A stretch of 64,000 nucleotides of DNA from Gaiellales bacterium (lineage in GTDB: Bacteria; Actinomycetota; Thermoleophilia; Gaiellales; JAICJC01), in contig DASWRM010000076.1 in assembly GCA_036403155.1 (NCBI GenBank), positions 130,909 to 194,908 of the forward strand. Direction: 5' to 3'. Each line of letters opens with the position of its first letter. The first letter of the stretch is position 1. Made by a program: the position numbers and the translations under genes. The notes beneath the pieces are model-generated. The model ran no database searches, was not told the origin of the DNA, and was given only the letters and a program-made list of their open reading frames with translations. Below are positions 4,984 through 23,906 of the stretch, in pieces.

Positions 4984-6681
4984 TCAGACTCCTTCCTCCA
5001 GGATGCTGCGCGCCCGCTGTCTCGCATCCTGCACGTCCGTCGAACTCTGCTCGCGCCCCCTGCGAGCCTGAACATCCACCGTTCCCTCCGTCACGGTGCG
5101 CTTGCCAACCGTGATGCGCACCGGCGCGCCGATCAGCTCGGCGTCTGCAAACTTGACACCGGGGCTGGCATCGCGGTCGTCGAAGAGCACCGACACGCCG
5201 TCCTCCGCCAGCTCGTCCTCCAGCCGCCGGGCGATCGCGAACTGCTCGGAGCTCTCGTCCCCGATCACCACCATGTGGGCGTGGTACGGCGCGATCGACG
5301 CGGGCCAGATCATCCCTCGCTCATCGTGCCCCTGCTCGATCGCCGCAGCCATGATCCTCGCCAGTCCGATCCCGTAGCTGCCCATCACGATGGGCCGCTC
5401 TTGTCCCGACTCATCCAGGTATGTCGCGTTCAACGGCACAGAGTACTTGGTGCCGAGCTTGAATATATTCCCAATTTCAATGACGCGCTCGATCCGCAGG
5501 ACGCCGTCGCAGTTCGGGCAACGGTCGCCGGCCTGCACCTCGCGGATGTCGGCGAACTCCGGCCGGTAGTCGCGCCCGGCCTCAACGCCCAGCAGGTGGT
5601 GACCCGTGCGGTTCGCGCCGGCGACGAATTGGCCGTCCCGCAGCGCCTCGTCGGCGATGATGCGCACCGGAGCGCCGACCGCGCCGATCGAGCCCGGCTC
5701 GGCGCCGAAGGTCTCGACGATCTCCTCCCGAGTCGCGGCGCGGTAGTCGCCGCCGAGCGCTTTGGCCATCTTCAGCTCATGCAGGCGGTGGTCGCCGCGG
5801 AGCACGCCGAGCACAACGTCGCCGTCCTTGACAACGACCATCGCCTTTGCCGTCGCAGCCGTATCGATGCTCAGCAGATCGGCGAGCGCTTCGATCGTTG
5901 TCACGCCGGGCGTCGCCACCTCGCGCGGCTCGTCCAGCCGTTCGGGAAACTCCGGCGGCCGCGGACGCGACCGGGCCAGCTCGACGTTGGCGGCATAGTC
6001 GCACGAGGAGCACAGCGCCACGTCGTCCTCCCCCGCGCTGCTCGGCGCCATGAACTCGTGCGCACCGAGGCCGCCCATCATGCCGACGTCGGACTCGACC
6101 ATCCAGTACTCCAGCCCGCAGCGGTCGTAGATCCGCCGGTACACCTCGATGTGCCGGCGGTAGCTCTCGTCCAGGCCCTCCTCGTCGCGGTCGAGGCTGT
6201 AGGAGTCCTTCATGACGAACTCCCGGGTGCGGAGGATGCCGCTCTTGGGCCGCGGCTCATCCCGTTCCTTGGTCTGGATGTGGTACCAGATCTGCGGCAG
6301 CTCCTTGTAGGAGCGGATCTCGTGCGCCGCGTGGAACGTCACGCACTCCTCATGCGTCATCGCCAGCGCGTACGGCCGCCCCGAGGAGTCCTGCAGCTTG
6401 TAGAGCTGCTCGATGTCCCAGCGGCCGGTGCGCTGCCACAGCTCGGCCGGATTCAGCACCGGCATCAGCATCTCCTGGCCGATGGTGTCCATTTCCTCCC
6501 GGATGATGCGGTCGATCTGCCGCATCACACGCCGGCCGAGCGGGAGATACGAGTAGAGGCCGCTTGCGACCTGCCGGACGAAGCCGCCGCGGACGAGCAG
6601 CCGGTGGCTGATCGCCTCGGCGTCGGCCGGGTCGTCCTTGAGCGTCGGGATCAGCAGCCGTGAGGCGCGCGTACCGCTCAC
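4984..6681 (-). CDS. proS: Proline--tRNA ligase, bacterial type
   Basis: 565 residues, standard length for bacterial ProRS. Class II motif 2 with neighbours is visible (MTHEECVTF; SGILRTREFVMKDSYS), then the inserted editing domain at about 220-400 (MAPSSAGEDDVALCSSCDY marks its beginning), motif 3 (GSYGIGLARIMAAAIEQ), and the C-terminal anticodon-binding domain. It charges tRNA-Pro and hydrolyses mischarged Ala-tRNA-Pro. It overlaps the 3' end of lpdA by 4 nt (ATGA). Start ATG 6681. Confidence 0.97.
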   Translation of the reverse strand: MSGTRASRLLIPTLKDDPADAEAISHRLLVRGGFVRQVASGLYSYLPLGRRVMRQIDRIIREEMDTIGQEMLMPVLNPAELWQRTGRWDIEQLYKLQDSSGRPYALAMTHEECVTFHAAHEIRSYKELPQIWYHIQTKERDEPRPKSGILRTREFVMKDSYSLDRDEEGLDESYRRHIEVYRRIYDRCGLEYWMVESDVGMMGGLGAHEFMAPSSAGEDDVALCSSCDYAANVELARSRPRPPEFPERLDEPREVATPGVTTIEALADLLSIDTAATAKAMVVVKDGDVVLGVLRGDHRLHELKMAKALGGDYRAATREEIVETFGAEPGSIGAVGAPVRIIADEALRDGQFVAGANRTGHHLLGVEAGRDYRPEFADIREVQAGDRCPNCDGVLRIERVIEIGNIFKLGTKYSVPLNATYLDESGQERPIVMGSYGIGLARIMAAAIEQGHDERGMIWPASIAPYHAHMVVIGDESSEQFAIARRLEDELAEDGVSVLFDDRDASPGVKFADAELIGAPVRITVGKRTVTEGTVDVQARRGREQSSTDVQDARQRARSILEEGV

Positions 6682-8099
6682 CGGGCGGCGGCTGCCCGGG
6701 CCCGCGGCTTGGCCGGCGGCAGGTGGATCGGGCGGCCGAGCGCGACGAGCGCCGCCTCCTTGACCGCCTCCGCGAGCGTTGGGTGCGCGGCGATCGAGTC
6801 ACCGATGGTCTCGATCGTCGCCTCGGCGGTCAACCCGACCACGCCGGCGTTGACCAGCTCGGTCGCCTGCGGGCCGACGATCACGAGGCCGAGCAGCTCG
6901 CCGTAGTGCGTCTCGTGGATGGTCTTCACCCAGCCGGTCTTCTCGGCGTACATCTGCGCGCGCGCATTCGCCGAGAACGGCATCCGGCCGACCGCGACGT
7001 CGTCGCCGTACCGGTCGCGCGCCTGCGCTTCGGTGAGGCCCACGCCCGCCACCTCGGGATCCGTGTAGATGCAGCGCGGAACGGCCGTGTAGTCGATCTC
7101 GGCGGCGTGGCCGACGGCGTTCTCCGCGGCCACCTCGCCCTCGCGGAACGACGTGTGCGCGAGCTGCCACTTCCCGGCCACGTCGCCGACCGCGAAGATG
7201 TGCGGGACGTTCGTGCGCATCGCCTCGTCGGTCTCGATGCCCTTGCGCGCGTCGAACGTGACGCCGGCCTGCTCGAGCCCGACGTCGGAGGTGTTCGGTC
7301 CGCGGCCGGTGGCGACCAGCACCACGTCGGCCTCCACCTGGCCGGCCGTACCGTCGGCGGACTCGAAGTGGAGCGTCGCGGACGAGCCGTGCTCGATCCG
7401 CGTGGCGCGCGCGCCGAGGTGCATCGTGATCTCCCGCTTCTTGAAGGCACGCTGCAGCTCGCGCGACGCATCGGCGTCCTCGGTCGGGATCAGGCTGTCG
7501 AGCATCTCGACGATGGTCACCTCGCTGCCGAAGTGCGAGAGGATCGAGGCGAACTCGACGCCGATCACGCCACCGCCGAGGATGACCGCGCGCCGCGGCA
7601 CCTCTCCCACCTCGAGCAGCCCCGTCGAGTCGACGCAGAGCGGCCCGTCGATGCCGTCGACCGGAGGGCGCAGCGGATGCGAGCCGGTCGCGATGATCGC
7701 ATGCGTGAAGGCGATGTCCTCGGCACCGTCGACCGCGATCGTGTTCGGGTCGCGGAAGCGGCCGCGGCCGCTGACCACCTCGATGCCGTTGGCCTTGACG
7801 ACGCCGGTGATGCCGTTGACGAGACCGTTGACGATGGTCTCCTTGTTCTTCTGGGTCGTCGCGAAGTCGTGGCTGACACCCTGCACGTTGACGCCGAGCT
7901 GGGCGAACGTGTGATGCGCGTCCTTCAGCGCGTGCGCGGTCTGCACCCACGTCTTGGTGGGGATGCAGCCGACCGTGATGCAGGTGCCGCCGACCCGCGC
8001 CTGTTCCACCATGACGACCTTCGCGCCCAGCTGAGCGGCGCGGATCGCAGCGGGATACCCGCCGGGGCCTCCGCCCAGGACGGCAACGTCACACTCCAT
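6678..8099 (-). CDS. lpdA: Dihydrolipoyl dehydrogenase (E3)
   Basis: 473 residues. FAD motif GGGPGG at 9-14, redox disulfide Cys40/Cys45 in GGTCITVGCIPTK (the usual Leu-Asn of this motif is Ile-Thr here), NAD motif GGGVIGVEFAS, second FAD motif VGDVAG, and the C-terminal catalytic pair in AAHPTLAEA. E3 reoxidises dihydrolipoamide with NAD+. It lies on the strand opposite to E1/E2 but close to them, downstream of the lipoyl-domain protein and hydrolase, so it is probably the E3 of that complex. Confidence 0.96.
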   Translation of the reverse strand: MECDVAVLGGGPGGYPAAIRAAQLGAKVVMVEQARVGGTCITVGCIPTKTWVQTAHALKDAHHTFAQLGVNVQGVSHDFATTQKNKETIVNGLVNGITGVVKANGIEVVSGRGRFRDPNTIAVDGAEDIAFTHAIIATGSHPLRPPVDGIDGPLCVDSTGLLEVGEVPRRAVILGGGVIGVEFASILSHFGSEVTIVEMLDSLIPTEDADASRELQRAFKKREITMHLGARATRIEHGSSATLHFESADGTAGQVEADVVLVATGRGPNTSDVGLEQAGVTFDARKGIETDEAMRTNVPHIFAVGDVAGKWQLAHTSFREGEVAAENAVGHAAEIDYTAVPRCIYTDPEVAGVGLTEAQARDRYGDDVAVGRMPFSANARAQMYAEKTGWVKTIHETHYGELLGLVIVGPQATELVNAGVVGLTAEATIETIGDSIAAHPTLAEAVKEAALVALGRPIHLPPAKPRARAAAAR

Positions 8100-8201
8100 C
8101 AGGGTTCACCTCTCGTCGATCGCTCGCGGTGCGTCCGGATCGTATCTCAGTGCGGGATGCCGGCCTCACTGCCCAACGCGGTGCGGGAGGCGCAGCCGCC
8201 G

Positions 8202-8987
8202 CTATGCCGGCGTGAGACCGAAGAACGGCCGCAGCAGCGCGACCGTGTCCTCGAACGCGTCCCAGTAGACGACGTGCCCGGCGTCGAGCCCGTGCACCGT
8301 CAGCCTCGCGTCCAGATCGTTTCGCAGCCACTCGACCACATGGTCGCCGACCATCCCGTCGTGCAGCGCGGGGGCCAGCAGCAGCTCGCCCTGGAAGCCG
8401 CCCATCGAGACCGGCTCGCGCGCCATCTCACTCCACGCCGCGACGACCGTGGAGCGGCAGTAGCGCAACCGCCAGCGGCCGTCGTCTCCCTGCTCCAGCG
8501 CCTCCTCCAGGTCGGCCTGGACGAACGGCAGCGCCTGCGGCGTCCGGCCCTCGCTCCGCGACCGCAGCGCCTCCTCGCGCGTCGCCCAGCCCTCGTCGCG
8601 CCGGGTCTCCTCGGCCGCCTCGAGCATCTCGTGCCCGTCCTGGGCGATCGCCGGGTCGAGCAGGGCCACCCGGCCCACCCGCGAAGGCGCTGTCGCGGCA
8701 AGGTGGGTGGCCAGCAGCCCGCCGAAGCTGTGGCCGACTACGTCGCAGCGCTCGAGGCCCTCCGCATCCAGCGTCTCGAGCAGGTCGGCGACATGCGTCT
8801 CGGCCGTCCACGGCGCATCCCAGGTCGACCGCCCGTGCCCGCGCAGGTCGACCGCCAGCCAGCGGCGCTCGGGCAGCCCCCGCTCCGCCAGCGCACGCCA
8901 CCTGCCGGCGTACCCCGTGACGCCGTGCAGCGCGAGCAGCGGCGCGCCGTCGTCCGCGCCGAAACGGGTCGCCGCCAGCCTCGCTAT
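8202..8987 (-). CDS. Alpha/beta hydrolase, AcoC-like C-terminal half, no canonical start
   Basis: About 261 codons reading LAATRFGADD, then ALHGVTG (oxyanion region), DLRGHGRS, the nucleophile elbow GHSFGG, and a C-terminal catalytic His in DAGHVVYWD. The frame opens only after TGA at 9006-9008 and has no ATG, GTG or TTG before the conserved core. The only options near its beginning are GTC 8996, ATA 8987 (overlapping the TAG of the preceding gene as ATAG) and CTG 8978. The preceding gene is a lipoyl domain in the adjacent frame. Acetoin dehydrogenase AcoC of Pseudomonas is a lipoyl domain fused to an alpha/beta hydrolase, so this may be the second half of one protein split by a frameshift in a run of five G. 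Confidence 0.75.
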   Translation of the reverse strand: MARLAATRFGADDGAPLLALHGVTGYAGRWRALAERGLPERRWLAVDLRGHGRSTWDAPWTAETHVADLLETLDAEGLERCDVVGHSFGGLLATHLAATAPSRVGRVALLDPAIAQDGHEMLEAAEETRRDEGWATREEALRSRSEGRTPQALPFVQADLEEALEQGDDGRWRLRYCRSTVVAAWSEMAREPVSMGGFQGELLLAPALHDGMVGDHVVEWLRNDLDARLTVHGLDAGHVVYWDAFEDTVALLRPFFGLTPA

Positions 8988-9240
8988 GGCAGCGACTCCC
9001 CCGCTTCACCGATCCAGGCAAGCGTCGCGCCGACGTCGTACTGGGCACCCTCCTCGCCCTCGATCCGGAGCACCACCCCGTCCGCCTCCGCCTCGACCTC
9101 CTGCGTCACCTTGTCGGTGTCGAGCTCGAACAGCGGATCGCCACGGTGCACCTCGCCGCCCTCGGGGACGAGGAACCGGATCAGGATGGCCGAGCGCATG
9201 TCCTCGCCCAGCCGGGGCACTGTGACCGCCACCGCCATGT
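8984..9240 (-). CDS. Lipoyl-domain protein (E2-type biotinyl/lipoyl attachment domain)
   Basis: 85 residues from ATG 9240 (a TTG at 9247 is also in frame). The sequence is a single lipoyl domain: VTVPRLGEDM, then the hairpin ELDTDKVTQEVEAEADG with the modified Lys, then TLAWIGEAGESLP. No catalytic domain follows in frame. It ends at TAG overlapping the open frame of the alpha/beta hydrolase, which together would resemble AcoC. It is divergent from the E1-alpha gene with about 35 bp between the starts, so the two strands probably share a control region. Alone it could serve as a free lipoyl carrier. Confidence 0.85.
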
Positions 9241-9260
9241 GCGCCAAGGACTCTACCCGC

Positions 9261-9266
9261 TAAGGT
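9261..9266 (+). promoter_or_regulatory. Candidate -10 box TAAGGT for the E1-E2 operon
   Basis: TAAGGT ends 9 nt before the ATG at 9276, giving an mRNA with almost no leader. No Shine-Dalgarno motif is present. Confidence 0.35.
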
Positions 9267-9275
9267 TTCGCCGGT

Positions 9276-10352
9276 ATGGCAAAGGCCGCCGAGACCGCCA
9301 CGGACGTCCTCCCAGACGCCGATACCGCGCGCCGTCTGTTCCGCATGATGGCCCTGATCCGGCGCTTCGAGGAGCGTACCGAGGAGCAGTACACCCGCGC
9401 ACGCATCGGCGGCTACTGTCACCTCGCGATCGGCGAGGAGGCGTCGACCGTCGGCGCCATCGATGCGCTCGAGGACGGCGACTGCCTCTACGCCAGCTAC
9501 CGCGACCACGGCACCGCGCTGGCGGCCGGCAGCCCACCCGAGGCGGTGATGGCGGAGCTGTTCGGCAAGGAGACCGGCGTGGCACACGGCCGCGGCGGCT
9601 CGATGCACCTGCTCGATGTCCCGCGGCGCTTCTTCGGCGGCTGGGGCATCGTCGGCGCGCATCTCCCCATCGCCACGGGCACCGCGCTGGCGTTGGTCTA
9701 CCGCGACCAGCCGCACGGTGTGCTCTGCCAGTTCGGGGACGGCGCCGTGGAGACCGGCTCGTTCCACGAGGCGCTGAACCTGGCCGCGATCTGGGACCTG
9801 CCGATCGTCTTTCAGATCATCAACAACCAGTACGGCATGGGCACGTCGGTCGAGCAGTCGTCCGCCGAGCCCGAGCTCTGGCGCCGGGCGGCGGCCTACC
9901 GGATGCACGGCGAGCGGGTCGACGGCAACGACGTGCTGGCCGTCCGCGAGTCCACCGCGCGCCTGCTCGAGCAGGCGCGCGGCGAGCGCCGCCCGGCCCT
10001 GCTCGAGACGGTCACCTACCGCTTCCGCGGCCACAGCGTCGCCGACGCGGGGAAGGTCTACCGAACGCCCGAGGAGATCGAATCGTGGCGGCGCCGCGAC
10101 CCCATCACGCGGTTCGGCCTGCTCTGCACCGAGCGTGGCCTGCTCGACGCCGAGGAGATCGAGCAGGTATGGGCGGACGTCGCCGCCACGGTGAAGGACG
10201 CGATCGACGGCGCGCTGGCGGCGGCGTTTCCCGACCCCGACACCCTGTACGAGCACGTCTACGGCGACCCCGGCTGGCGCGAGCAGTTCGCCCGCATGCG
10301 AGCGGGCGCGCCCTTCGGCGAGCGTGGCGAGGAGCGGTCGTGGGAGACCTGA
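9276..10352 (+). CDS. Thiamine-diphosphate dehydrogenase E1 component, alpha subunit
   Basis: 358 residues, E1-alpha family of pyruvate/acetoin dehydrogenases. The thiamine diphosphate motif is complete (GDGAVETGSFHEALN then QIINNQYGMGT), preceded by HGRGGSMHLLD and GGWGIVGAH, which line the active site and phosphorylation-loop region. The GGSMH/GGWGIVGAH set is typical of acetoin and pyruvate E1-alpha; which substrate is used cannot be decided. The next gene starts inside its last codons (GTG 10340), so the two subunits are translationally coupled. Confidence 0.95.
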   Translation: MAKAAETATDVLPDADTARRLFRMMALIRRFEERTEEQYTRARIGGYCHLAIGEEASTVGAIDALEDGDCLYASYRDHGTALAAGSPPEAVMAELFGKETGVAHGRGGSMHLLDVPRRFFGGWGIVGAHLPIATGTALALVYRDQPHGVLCQFGDGAVETGSFHEALNLAAIWDLPIVFQIINNQYGMGTSVEQSSAEPELWRRAAAYRMHGERVDGNDVLAVRESTARLLEQARGERRPALLETVTYRFRGHSVADAGKVYRTPEEIESWRRRDPITRFGLLCTERGLLDAEEIEQVWADVAATVKDAIDGALAAAFPDPDTLYEHVYGDPGWREQFARMRAGAPFGERGEERSWET

Positions 10353-11335
10353 CCTACCGCGAGGCCCTCCGCCGGGCGCTCGACGATGAGCTCGCCCGCG
10401 ACCCGGACGTCTTCCTGATGGGCGAGGAGATCGGCCGCTTCGAGGGCAGCTACAAGGTGACCGCCGGTCTCTGGCAGAAGTACGGCCCGGCACGCGTCCG
10501 CGAGACACCCATCTCGGAGGAGGGCTTCATCGGCGCCGGGATCGGTGCGGCGATGATGGGCCTGCGCCCCGTCGTCGAGATCATGACGATCAACTTCATC
10601 CTGGTCGCGATGGACCAGGTCATCAACCACGCGGCCAAGATCCGGTACATGTTCGGCGGCACGGTGGGCGTCCCGCTCGTCATCCGCACACCCGCGGGGG
10701 CGGGCGCGCAGCTGACGGCGCAGCACTCCCAGAGCCTGGAGGGCTGGTTCGCCGGCTGTCCGGGGCTGAAGGTCGTGGCACCCGCGTCCCCCGCCGACGC
10801 CTACGGGATGCTGAAGACCGCCATCCGCGACGACGACCCGGTGCTCTTCGTCGAGAACCTCGTCATGTACAACGTCACGGGGCCCATGCCGGAGGACACC
10901 GACTACACGGTTCCGTTCGGCCTGGCCGCCGTTGTCCGCGAGGGCACCGACCTCACGATCGTCGCGCACTCCTATGCCGTGCAGCGAGCCCTGCGCGTCG
11001 CCGACAACCTGTCCCGCGACGGCATCGAGGCGGAGGTGATCGACCTGCGCTCGCTGCGGCCGCTCGACGCCGAGACGGTCGCCGAGTCCGTCCGCAAGAC
11101 GAACCGGGCGCTGATCGCGGAGGAGGGCTGGTCGACGTACGGCGTCGGCGCCGAGCTGGCTGCGCGCATCCACCGCCTCTGCTTCGACGATCTCGACGCT
11201 CCGGTCGAGCGGGTGGGCGGCGCCGAGGTGCCCATGCCGTACTCCAAGCCGCTCGAGCTTGCCGCCCTGCCGCTCGAGGCCAAGATCGAGGCGGCCGCCC
11301 GCGAGCTGCTCGCGGAGAGCGGGATCACGGGGTGA
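10340..11335 (+). CDS. Thiamine-diphosphate dehydrogenase E1 component, beta subunit
   Basis: 331 residues from GTG 10340, preceded by GAGGAG and overlapping the alpha gene by 13 nt. The family pattern is clear: LTYREALRRALDDEL, FLMGEEIGRFEG (Glu contacting thiamine diphosphate), RVRETPISEEGFIGAGIGAA, then TPAGAGAQLTAQHSQSLEGW and the C-terminal transketolase domain with IAEEGWSTYGVGAE. It forms the alpha2beta2 E1 that decarboxylates the 2-oxoacid or acetoin and hands the acyl group to E2. Confidence 0.95.
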   Translation: MGDLTYREALRRALDDELARDPDVFLMGEEIGRFEGSYKVTAGLWQKYGPARVRETPISEEGFIGAGIGAAMMGLRPVVEIMTINFILVAMDQVINHAAKIRYMFGGTVGVPLVIRTPAGAGAQLTAQHSQSLEGWFAGCPGLKVVAPASPADAYGMLKTAIRDDDPVLFVENLVMYNVTGPMPEDTDYTVPFGLAAVVREGTDLTIVAHSYAVQRALRVADNLSRDGIEAEVIDLRSLRPLDAETVAESVRKTNRALIAEEGWSTYGVGAELAARIHRLCFDDLDAPVERVGGAEVPMPYSKPLELAALPLEAKIEAAARELLAESGITG

Positions 11336-11344
11336 GGGGGCACC

Positions 11345-12631
11345 ATGTCTGAGGAGCTGGTGATGCCCCGCCTGTCAGACACGATGGAGCAGGGCACGAT
11401 CGGCCGCTGGCTGGTGAAGGAAGGCGACTCCTACCGCGAGGGGGACGTGCTGGCCGAGATCGAGACCGACAAGGCCACGATGGAGTTCCAGGCCTACGAC
11501 GCCGGCACGGTGCTGCGGATCCTGGTGGCCGACGGCGAGTCGGCCGCGCTCGGCGCGCCGATCGCGGTCGTGGGCGACGCCGGCGAGCAGGCCGATGCGC
11601 CGGCCGAGGCTCCGCCGGACGAGGCGCAGCCGACGGACGACCGCGGCCCCGGCGACGCCGAGCGGCCGTCCCAGGCCCCCGCGCGGACGCGCAAGGCCGC
11701 CAGGCGGCCGGCAGCGGCGGCCGCCAACGGCTCGACAGCCGGCGCCGCGCTCCGCGTGTCGCCCATCGCGCGGCGCATGGCGGACGACGCCGGCATCGAC
11801 CTCTCCGGCCTCGCCGGCCGCGGAAGCGGCCCCGAGGGGCGCATCGTCAAGGCCGACGTCGAGCGGCTGATCGGGGACGGCGGCGGCCGCAGGGCGGCGG
11901 CAGTCGCCCCTGCACCCGCGGCTGCTTCGCCGACCCCGGCGGCAGACGACGAGATCCGCGAGCTGACGCCGATGCTGAAGGCGGTCGCGGCGCGCATGGC
12001 CCACTCCAAGCAGACCGTCCCCCACTTCTACGTGGAGTCCGAGATCGACATGACGCGGGCCATGCAGCTGCGTGCGGAGCTGAACGAGGGGCTCGCGGCG
12101 GCCGGCGAGAAGATCAGCGTCAACGACCTGATCGTGCGGGCGTGCGCGCAGGCGCTGATCGAGCACCCGCAGGCGCACCGGTCATACATCGACGGCCGTC
12201 ACGCCTACCACGCCCATGCGGCCATCGGCATCGCGGTCGCACTCGAGGACGGCCTGATCGTGCCGGTGATCCCCGAGGCCGACACGAAGTCCGTCCGCGA
12301 GATCAGCCGCGAGGCGCGCGACCTCGCCGTGAGGGCACGCGAGGGAAAGCTGAAGCAGCGCGAGATCGAGGGCGGAACCTTCACCGTCAGCAACATGGGG
12401 ATGTTCGACGTCGCGAACTTCCAGGCGATCATCAACCCCCCCGAGTCCGCGATCCTCGCGGTCGGCGCGACGGGACCGCGCCCGGTCGTCACGGACGGCG
12501 AGATCGGGGTTCGCCAGATCATGCGCGTGACGCTCTCCTGCGACCACCGGGCGTGCTCCGGTGCGGACGGCGCAAAGCTCCTGCGGACGGTGAAGCGGCT
12601 TCTGCAGTCCCCGTCGCTTCTGCTCGTGTAG
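11345..12631 (+). CDS. Dihydrolipoamide acyltransferase (E2)
   Basis: 428 residues, 9 nt after E1-beta. Lipoyl domain at 1-80 with Lys in ETDKATMEFQAYD, an Ala/Pro-rich linker, a peripheral subunit-binding domain at about 138-175 (SPIARRMADDAGIDL, GPEGRIVKADVE), a second linker, and the catalytic core from about 205. The active-site segment is SCDHRACSGADGA; most relatives have DHRxxDG, so the Asp after the catalytic His is Ser here. The two flanking Gly and the His are kept. It is probably functional, but the change deserves notice. Confidence 0.93.
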   Translation: MSEELVMPRLSDTMEQGTIGRWLVKEGDSYREGDVLAEIETDKATMEFQAYDAGTVLRILVADGESAALGAPIAVVGDAGEQADAPAEAPPDEAQPTDDRGPGDAERPSQAPARTRKAARRPAAAAANGSTAGAALRVSPIARRMADDAGIDLSGLAGRGSGPEGRIVKADVERLIGDGGGRRAAAVAPAPAAASPTPAADDEIRELTPMLKAVAARMAHSKQTVPHFYVESEIDMTRAMQLRAELNEGLAAAGEKISVNDLIVRACAQALIEHPQAHRSYIDGRHAYHAHAAIGIAVALEDGLIVPVIPEADTKSVREISREARDLAVRAREGKLKQREIEGGTFTVSNMGMFDVANFQAIINPPESAILAVGATGPRPVVTDGEIGVRQIMRVTLSCDHRACSGADGAKLLRTVKRLLQSPSLLLV

Positions 12632-12643
12632 GGGGACGGGTGC

Positions 12644-12671
12644 TTACGGTTTCCCGGGCCGCCGGTACACT
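12644..12671 (+). promoter_or_regulatory. Promoter with TTACGG and TACACT, leaderless geometry
   Basis: TTACGG at 12644-12649 and TACACT at 12666-12671 are 16 nt apart, and TACACT ends 6 nt before the GTG at 12678. Transcription would start at the start codon. This supplies the CBS gene with its own promoter, separate from the dehydrogenase operon. Confidence 0.55.
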
Positions 12672-12677
12672 GGAATC

Positions 12678-13139
12678 GTGCAGCTGACCGACGTCATGAG
12701 CACCGGCCTGGTCACCGTCTCCCCGGAGACGCGGATCGGCGATGCGGCCCGCCGGATGGTCGAGGCGGATGTCGGGGCGGCGATCGTGCTTGCCGGCGCG
12801 GACGAGCTGGTCGGCATGATCACCGAGCGCGACCTGCTGCGGTGCGTCAGCGAGGGCGTCGATCCCGGCGTGCCGGTCTCCGACCGCATGACGCGCCACG
12901 TGCTGACCGGCTCGCCGTCGACGGAGCTCGCCGAGGCGATGGCGCTGATGGTCGACGGCCACTTCCGCCACCTCCCCGTGGTCAACGACGAGGGTCACGT
13001 GATCGGCCTCGCGTCCATGCGCGACCTGATGGCGTACACCTCCCTGCGGCTGCGCAGCGGCGCGTTCGACGCGGACGACGACCTGGATCCGGCCGAGGTG
13101 ATCGCGACGATCCACCGCATGCGCACCGGCGCCGCCTAG
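12678..13139 (+). CDS. CBS-domain pair protein
   Basis: 153 residues made of two CBS motifs, about 1-60 (VMSTGLVTVSPETRIGDAA, IVLAGADELVGMITERDLL) and about 70-130 (RMTRHVLTGSPSTELAEAM, HLPVVNDEGHVIGLASMRDL). There is no attached enzymatic or transporter domain. Stand-alone CBS pairs bind adenine nucleotides and regulate partner proteins. No partner is evident from neighbours. The start is GTG 12678, supported by the promoter directly before it. Confidence 0.92.
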   Translation: MQLTDVMSTGLVTVSPETRIGDAARRMVEADVGAAIVLAGADELVGMITERDLLRCVSEGVDPGVPVSDRMTRHVLTGSPSTELAEAMALMVDGHFRHLPVVNDEGHVIGLASMRDLMAYTSLRLRSGAFDADDDLDPAEVIATIHRMRTGAA

Positions 13140-22901: not shown

Positions 22902-23600
22902 CTACGTGTTCTTCGCGGCGGTGGCCGTGCCGGCCGCGGTGTCGCTGGGGGCCTCGGCCTCGGCGGGAACCTCATCGACCTGGGCGGAAACCTCATCGAC
23001 CTGGGCGGGAACCTCATCGACCTCGGCGGGCGCGTCGGCCGCGTGAGGTGCCGGCGCATTCTTGTGGGGCGCCAGCATCATCACCATGTTGCGACCGTCC
23101 TGGAGCGGAGCCGACTCCACCACGCCGAGCTCCTGCACCTCGTCGGCGAGCTTCAGCAGCAGCACCTTCCCGCGCTCGGGGTGCGCCTGCTCCCGCCCGC
23201 GGAACATGATCGTCACCTTGACCTTGTCCCGGTTCTTGAGGAAGCGGACGACGTGCCCCTTCTTGGTCGCGTAGTCGTGCGGGTCGATCTTTGGTCGCAG
23301 CTTGATCTCCTTGATGGTGATGGTCGACTGGTGCTTGCGTGCGAGCTTGGCCTTCTGCTCCTGCTCGTACTTGTACTTCGAGTAGTCCATCACCCGGCAC
23401 ACGGGCGGCTTCGCGTCGGGAGCGACCTCGACCAGGTCGAGGTTCTTGTCCCACGCGTACTTGAGCGCCTCGTCGGTGCTCTTGATGCCGATCTGCTCCC
23501 CGTCTGCGCCGATCAGGCGCACCTGGGGAACGCGGATCGCATCGTTGATCCGGGTGGTCGGCTCCTGGGGCCGCTGGTCGAATCGTCGCCGCGGTCTCAA
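22902..23600 (-). CDS. infC: Translation initiation factor IF-3, start uncertain
   Basis: The IF-3 core is complete: [20 protein letters not shown], the linker helix ([17 protein letters not shown]), and the C-terminal domain ([39 protein letters not shown]). A C-terminal tail of about 50 residues has tandem acidic repeats (VDEVPAQ units) absent in typical IF-3. The frame is open to GTG 23678, but that codon lies in a terminator-like hairpin (23661-23682), so it is not a credible start. TTG 23600 gives 232 residues and is the nearest usual start codon before the core; infC often uses rare starts, so another codon is possible. Confidence 0.93.
22962..23024 (-). repeat. Three tandem 21-bp repeats inside infC
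   Basis: Three near-identical 21-bp units at 22962-22982, 22983-23003 and 23004-23024 encode the seven-residue unit [14 protein letters not shown] in the IF-3 tail. They differ at only two or three bases, so the expansion is recent or is being homogenised. Length in phase with codons keeps the reading frame. Confidence 0.85.
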
Positions 23601-23655
23601 GAGGTGGGCCCAGTCACGATCAGGGTCAAGCTCGAAGTCTCCCTTCGTCGACAAC

Positions 23656-23682
23656 GCAAAACGGGCGCCGCAAGGCACCCGT
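23656..23682 (-). terminator. Terminator-like hairpin in the infC leader (attenuator candidate)
   Basis: On the minus strand ACGGGTGCC-TTGC-GGCGCCCGT forms a 9-bp stem with a 4-nt loop (one G-T pair), followed at once by TTTT. It lies about 60-80 nt before the likely infC start and after the promoter side of the leader. Many infC-rpmI-rplT operons are controlled by a leader attenuator or L20 feedback; this hairpin fits that role. Confidence 0.65.
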
Positions 23683-23906
23683 CCTCATACTTCCCACCGG
23701 GGAAGCGACCGTCATACTGCTCGGTTGAACCCGCCAGACGCGTGGAGCGCGGCGGGTGAGAAGCGGGATGCCTCTGCTTTGCCAGGGCTGGAGTATAGCC
23801 GACGCCCGGCGACCGGCTCCCGCCGGTGTGACGTTCTGGTTACAGACGCGACAAACCTTGGGCGCGAGCCCTTGACCTGCGCCGCGGTGTTCGTAATGAT
23901 CGCCGC
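23683..23906. other. 224-bp divergent control region between infC and the phosphoribosyltransferase
   Basis: No gene. It should hold the infC operon promoter (minus strand) and the promoter for the gene at 23907: AATGAT ends 6 nt before GTG 23907, again leaderless spacing. No confident -35 was seen for infC. Confidence 0.4.

Follow-up and report, generated by a model that had tools for sequence, protein, structure and literature searches.

A conserved lipoyl/alpha-beta-hydrolase overlap with a putative AUA start in a Gaiellales bacterium

Described systems and the gene surroundings

AcoC occurs in Pseudomonas. The AcoC-type acetoin dehydrogenase subunit (NF011457/PRK14875) resembles the locus analysed here in that the same broad families, lipoyl and alpha/beta hydrolase, come together with adjacent E1 and E3 genes. 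Unlike AcoC, our locus places the two domains in two reading frames with no linker, its E1 genes match models of pyruvate dehydrogenase, E1 alpha only narrowly, and the neighbourhood includes a complete E2.

Two further described systems concern the start of translation. In excerpts from PMC12548453, -4 is the commonest gene overlap, and such overlaps and translational coupling are described there and in excerpts from PMC6728339. The lipoyl/hydrolase pair would likewise combine co-directional genes, a four-base overlap and an internal Shine-Dalgarno (SD)-like element; in the coupled pairs of those excerpts, however, NTGA is used with ATG, GTG or TTG, whereas here it would be ATAG with AUA. Native AUA starts appear in excerpts from a study of Staphylococcus aureus (PMC13009471) for infC, ccpN and citZ, with expression relative to AUG of about 10–30% for ccpN (up to 30% in rich medium) and of at least ~10% for citZ; infC, cvfC1 and ccpN are described there as having extended SD motifs. 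Like these AUA/AUU genes (infC, ccpN, citZ and cvfC1 in the same excerpts), the hydrolase would begin at a weak near-cognate codon preceded by a strong SD-like element; unlike them, it is a metabolic gene that overlaps an upstream stop, its start is putative, and a canonical alternative exists in two related genomes, G001 and G002. A rare-start hydrolase is a further case of an already known kind. Our literature searches on the topic, which were not designed to prove absence, did not meet this locus.

The window, the whole 64,000-nucleotide stretch that we analysed, contains a standalone lipoyl-domain gene of 84 amino acids on the minus strand (8984..9238), running from ATG at 9238 to TAG at 8986–8984, with TTG at 9247 as a possible alternative start; a Pfam search matches it to Biotin_lipoyl (PF00364, E 1e-15). 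Downstream and co-directional lies a dihydrolipoyl dehydrogenase gene (6678..8099, minus strand; TIGR01350, 507.5 bits vs. a cut-off of 408.8). Divergently, on the plus strand at 9276..12631, are E1 alpha, E1 beta and the complete E2 of a pyruvate-dehydrogenase-type complex (TIGR03182, NF006667 and PF00198/PF00364/PF02817), E1 alpha passing the pyruvate dehydrogenase model TIGR03182 narrowly (394.8 vs. 393.85) with the complete E2 alongside. Between the lipoyl start and the divergent start of E1 alpha lie only 37 bases (window 9239–9275); leaders there must be very short. TAnnnT-like boxes can be seen by eye on both strands of this gap. A search for Rfam families in 6000–13000 found no known RNA element.

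The hydrolase frame and its relatives

Behind the lipoyl gene, an alpha/beta-hydrolase gene occupies 8202..8987 of the minus strand, with 261 codons from ATA at 8987 to the stop, and Ser87 of the nucleophile elbow (GHSFG) and His238 are kept. It is a full-length match to Pfam Abhydrolase_1 (PF00561, E 4.4e-19; 69.6 bits vs. a cut-off of 25.8), and the alignment of the nearest PDB sequence, 7al5 (E 2.8e-12), to the hydrolase begins at residue 3. Seen from the lipoyl frame, the hydrolase lies in -1. Its frame is limited upstream by TGA at 9008–9006 and is open from 9005 to the stop at 8202, beginning AGC GGG GGA GTC GCT GCC ATA GCG AGG CTG. With ATA 8987 counted as codon 1, the first ATG, GTG or TTG is codon 104 (GTG 8678), far inside the hydrolase domain. 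The first-pass annotation had described this layout correctly: the lipoyl frame ends at TAG 8984–8986, the frames overlap from 9005, a run of five G lies on the minus strand at 9002–8998, and no ATG, GTG or TTG precedes the conserved start of the hydrolase. Provided that AUA is the start, ATAG (8984..8987, minus strand, -4 spacing) makes a four-base stop/start overlap, in which the proposed AUA (8987–8985) overlaps the lipoyl TAG (8986–8984); a canonical start codon for such a pair is absent from the frame before codon 104.

We compared five genomes of the family, among them the window genome (G000), G001 from the same genus and G002 from a sister genus. In G001 the lipoyl gene (80% identity) and the hydrolase (74–75%) have the same overlap and the same -1 relative frame. 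The hydrolase frame there reads TGA GGA GCT TCC ATC GCC CGC CTG AAC GTG CAT, with codon 1 (ATC) 4 nt downstream of the SD-like octamer UGAGGAGC, no ATG, GTG or TTG in codons 1–5, and GTG at codon 6, two bases past the lipoyl stop. The G002 hydrolase (77–78% identity) stands alone, elsewhere, with no lipoyl gene ahead, and its frame reads TAG GGT GCT GCC ATC GTG GTC CTG AAC, GTG being codon 2; lipoyl orthologues in G002–G004 are 67–68% identical. The codon aligned to ATA is thus ATC in both G001 and G002, while codon 2 is GCG in the window, GCC in G001 and GTG in G002. The overlapping lipoyl/hydrolase pair is real and conserved. Over codons 1–3, all four nucleotide differences between the window and G001 preserve Ile-Ala-Arg, as do 18 of the 10206 enumerated four-substitution variants if equal rates are assumed. 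Codon 3 Arg is shared with more distant relatives beginning M-R-L-N-V-H; in most of these distant sequences an ATG or GTG start lies within a few codons of the same place. Window codons 5–7 (AAT) differ from the family N-V-H, which suggests a relaxed N-terminus.

The hydrolase frame is not a product of chance: it has the full-length Abhydrolase_1 match, orthologues at 74–77% and the third-position substitution excess typical of coding sequence. Over codons 1–104, in a comparison that takes in two codons upstream of ATA, the window and G001 differ at 17 first, 11 second and 34 third positions. The control set comprised 27 ORF pairs with at least 200 aligned codons each, common to the window and the G001 contig, chosen by a greedy filter through which E1 alpha was lost and a few antisense shadow ORFs were let in. 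Six of the 27 have more than 10 aligned codons preceding the first canonical start, and only in the hydrolase pair is there a third-position excess in that stretch. Corrected hydrolase dN/dS is 0.36 between the window genome and G001, 0.30 between the window genome and G002, and 0.26 between G001 and G002; for the lipoyl pair it is 0.20. Selection has maintained the hydrolase frame (dN/dS about 0.3–0.36). Three-point arithmetic on the pairwise values gives branch dN/dS of ~0.44 for the window genome, ~0.31 for G001 and ~0.21 for G002; the hydrolase of the window lineage is constrained, yet the least of the three.

Within the lipoyl gene, 8 nt upstream of ATA, lies the SD-like element GGGGGAG (8996..9002, minus strand), which holds the five-G run. 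Its predicted duplex with the canonical anti-SD, a sequence that is not confirmed in the window genome, has an energy of -8.6 kcal/mol, whereas 400 positions drawn at random from the window have their 5th percentile at -8.4; a search of this genome for a 16S anti-SD pattern did not find one. An RNA hairpin is predicted at 8955..9012 (minus strand; MFE -32.5, z -3.3, a value reached by 2 of 200 shuffles); its loop holds AUA, and its stem takes in part of the SD-like element. Comparable excess stability was absent from the other four sequences folded, including G001 (z -0.5) and G002 (z -0.9), and a longer 121-nt stretch around the hairpin is unremarkable (z -0.8). We offer as a weak suggestion, concerning one sequence in five tested, that the hairpin could keep the SD-like element hidden until it is opened by a passing ribosome.

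Adjacency of lipoyl and hydrolase genes was seen only in the window and G001 loci among 145 loci, whose flanks are often short, and in the best 80 of 104 loci from a contig scan only G001 is close (75%), the next reaching at most 53%. The content of the slot behind the lipoyl gene varies: hydrolase, cupin/TPR-like or VOC protein (window 8202–8987; L147, L149, L150). Free-standing lipoyl genes occur also in G002, G003 and G004 with other genes behind them. In G002 and G004 the following gene is cupin-like and overlaps by GTGA, its Pfam cupin scores falling just under the curated cut-off. In G003 it is a VOC/glyoxalase gene (L149:5513–5896) with a CTGA overlap with the lipoyl stop, no ATG, GTG or TTG between the overlap and residue 11, and, 7 nt upstream, an SD-like element (-7.9 kcal/mol).

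Two other observations concern starts in related or nearby genes. The distant hydrolase relatives L014, L011 and L016 look leaderless, with a TAnnnT box ~6 bases before ATG. A leaderless start for the window hydrolase was considered and rejected: L014 has TAGGGT six bases before its ATG, and the window has no such box at that distance from ATA. infC (window 22902–23684) is apparently TTG-started in four of five family genomes, its frame not having been found by motif in G001; read from TTG in those four, it was discarded as an indication that the family uses AUH starts.

Explanations for the missing start

One option of the first-pass annotation, programmed -1 slippage on the G run that would join the two frames into an AcoC-like lipoyl-hydrolase fusion, seems to us highly improbable. 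GCG GGG GAG would let GGG re-pair in the -1 frame, the hairpin over the slip site is predicted to be stable (z -3.3), and real lipoyl-hydrolase fusions occur in the order, those of G020 and G031 being 36–38% matches with long linkers. However, the site departs from the standard X XXY YYZ heptamer, the hairpin contains it instead of following it and is not seen in G001, and the fusion linker would be ~10 residues, compared with roughly 43 model positions in NF011457. Nor is the G run conserved: G001 has GGGTGAGG (GGGTGA) there, where a -1 slip reads TGA, and in our own reading of its sequence the later codons up to the lipoyl stop offer no good slip. The G002 hydrolase has no preceding lipoyl gene at all. 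A fused AcoC was also rejected on model scores, the hydrolase reaching 82.4 and the lipoyl piece 70.7 bits in NF011457 against a cut-off of 307. A single polypeptide with both domains was not found in these genomes, the frames being separate in the window genome and G001 and the hydrolase alone in G002. The other way to obtain a fused gene, or a normal start, is an assembly or base error that conceals it, and the window species is represented by a single assembly. But in the separate assembly of G001 the two frames stand in the same relation and codons 1–5 likewise lack a canonical start, which makes a one-base error, such as the single G raised at first pass, unlikely; we consider errors of this kind very improbable overall.

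The suggestion of a disabled gene is countered only in part. If the hydrolase had recently lost its start in the window lineage and were now little translated, one might expect what is seen at its beginning: the window genome has no canonical start while both G001 and G002 have one nearby, codons 5–7 are off the family consensus, and the branch dN/dS is the highest of the three. Against such decay, the 261 codons are intact and still encode the catalytic Ser and His, dN/dS overall is about 0.3–0.36, and a strong SD-like element is retained at the right distance; we think it unlikely. Re-initiation might instead take place at CUG, codon 4 (CTG 8976..8978, minus strand), five bases past the lipoyl stop. 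All four sequences in the alignment, that of the window among them, have CTG here; CTG is permitted by table 11 and seems to start the neighbouring VOC gene of G003. It lies, however, 17 nt from the SD-like element; excerpts from PMC11497404 put CTG at 0.024% of bacterial starts and at 0.86% of AUG efficiency; codon 3 Arg, upstream of it, looks like coding sequence; and the leucine may be conserved only because the protein needs it. CUG is a weaker option than AUA, and we regard it as distinctly unlikely.

A putative AUA start behind the lipoyl gene

On balance, we consider it probable from the sequence comparisons that the hydrolase is a separate protein, coupled to the lipoyl gene through the ATAG overlap and begun at a rare AUA. 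Two separate proteins would then be made. The lipoyl gene would finish at TAG, GGGGGAG at its end would hold the ribosome, and the ribosome would re-initiate at the overlapping AUA (ATAG, -4 spacing). The product would be an alpha/beta hydrolase of ~261 residues, free-standing and, as the start is weak, made at a low level. We infer that AUA and not CUG is used, that it is read by fMet, and that translation is coupled. Excess IF3 inhibits non-canonical starts and SD-less re-initiation in excerpts from PMC2268962, which would fit the strong SD-like element at the hydrolase start.

The rare start (ATA in ATAG) is the best supported of the four options that the first-pass annotation had listed, through the overlap and frame shared with G001, the strong SD-like element at 8 nt and the purifying selection; AUA itself is favoured, not proven. 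What weighs against it is that GTG lies nearby in G001 and G002 and that window codons 5–7 diverge. The annotation had also suggested comparing the junction in close relatives for separate genes with canonical starts, and these exist in part, with GTG at codon 2 in G002 and at codon 6 in G001. Given these two GTG codons, the conserved ATH codon may be an ancestral leader and not a start, and the window genome is the only one of the three wholly without a canonical option. The likely history is that an ancestral hydrolase gene, alone as it still is in G002, was brought in behind the lipoyl gene in the genus of the window genome and G001, and that its own GTG at codon 2 was lost after coupling supplied ribosomes.

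A broader proposal, which we hold to be doubtful, is that in this Thermoleophilia family re-initiation behind the lipoyl gene may tolerate non-canonical starts (AUA, AUC, CUG), and that unrelated genes such as those for the hydrolase, the VOC protein and the cupin could be swapped into the slot with no canonical start of their own. Gene callers that seek ATG, GTG or TTG would omit the hydrolase gene or shorten it. If coupled genes can do without an ordinary start codon, overlapping genes of a hidden class may have been overlooked.
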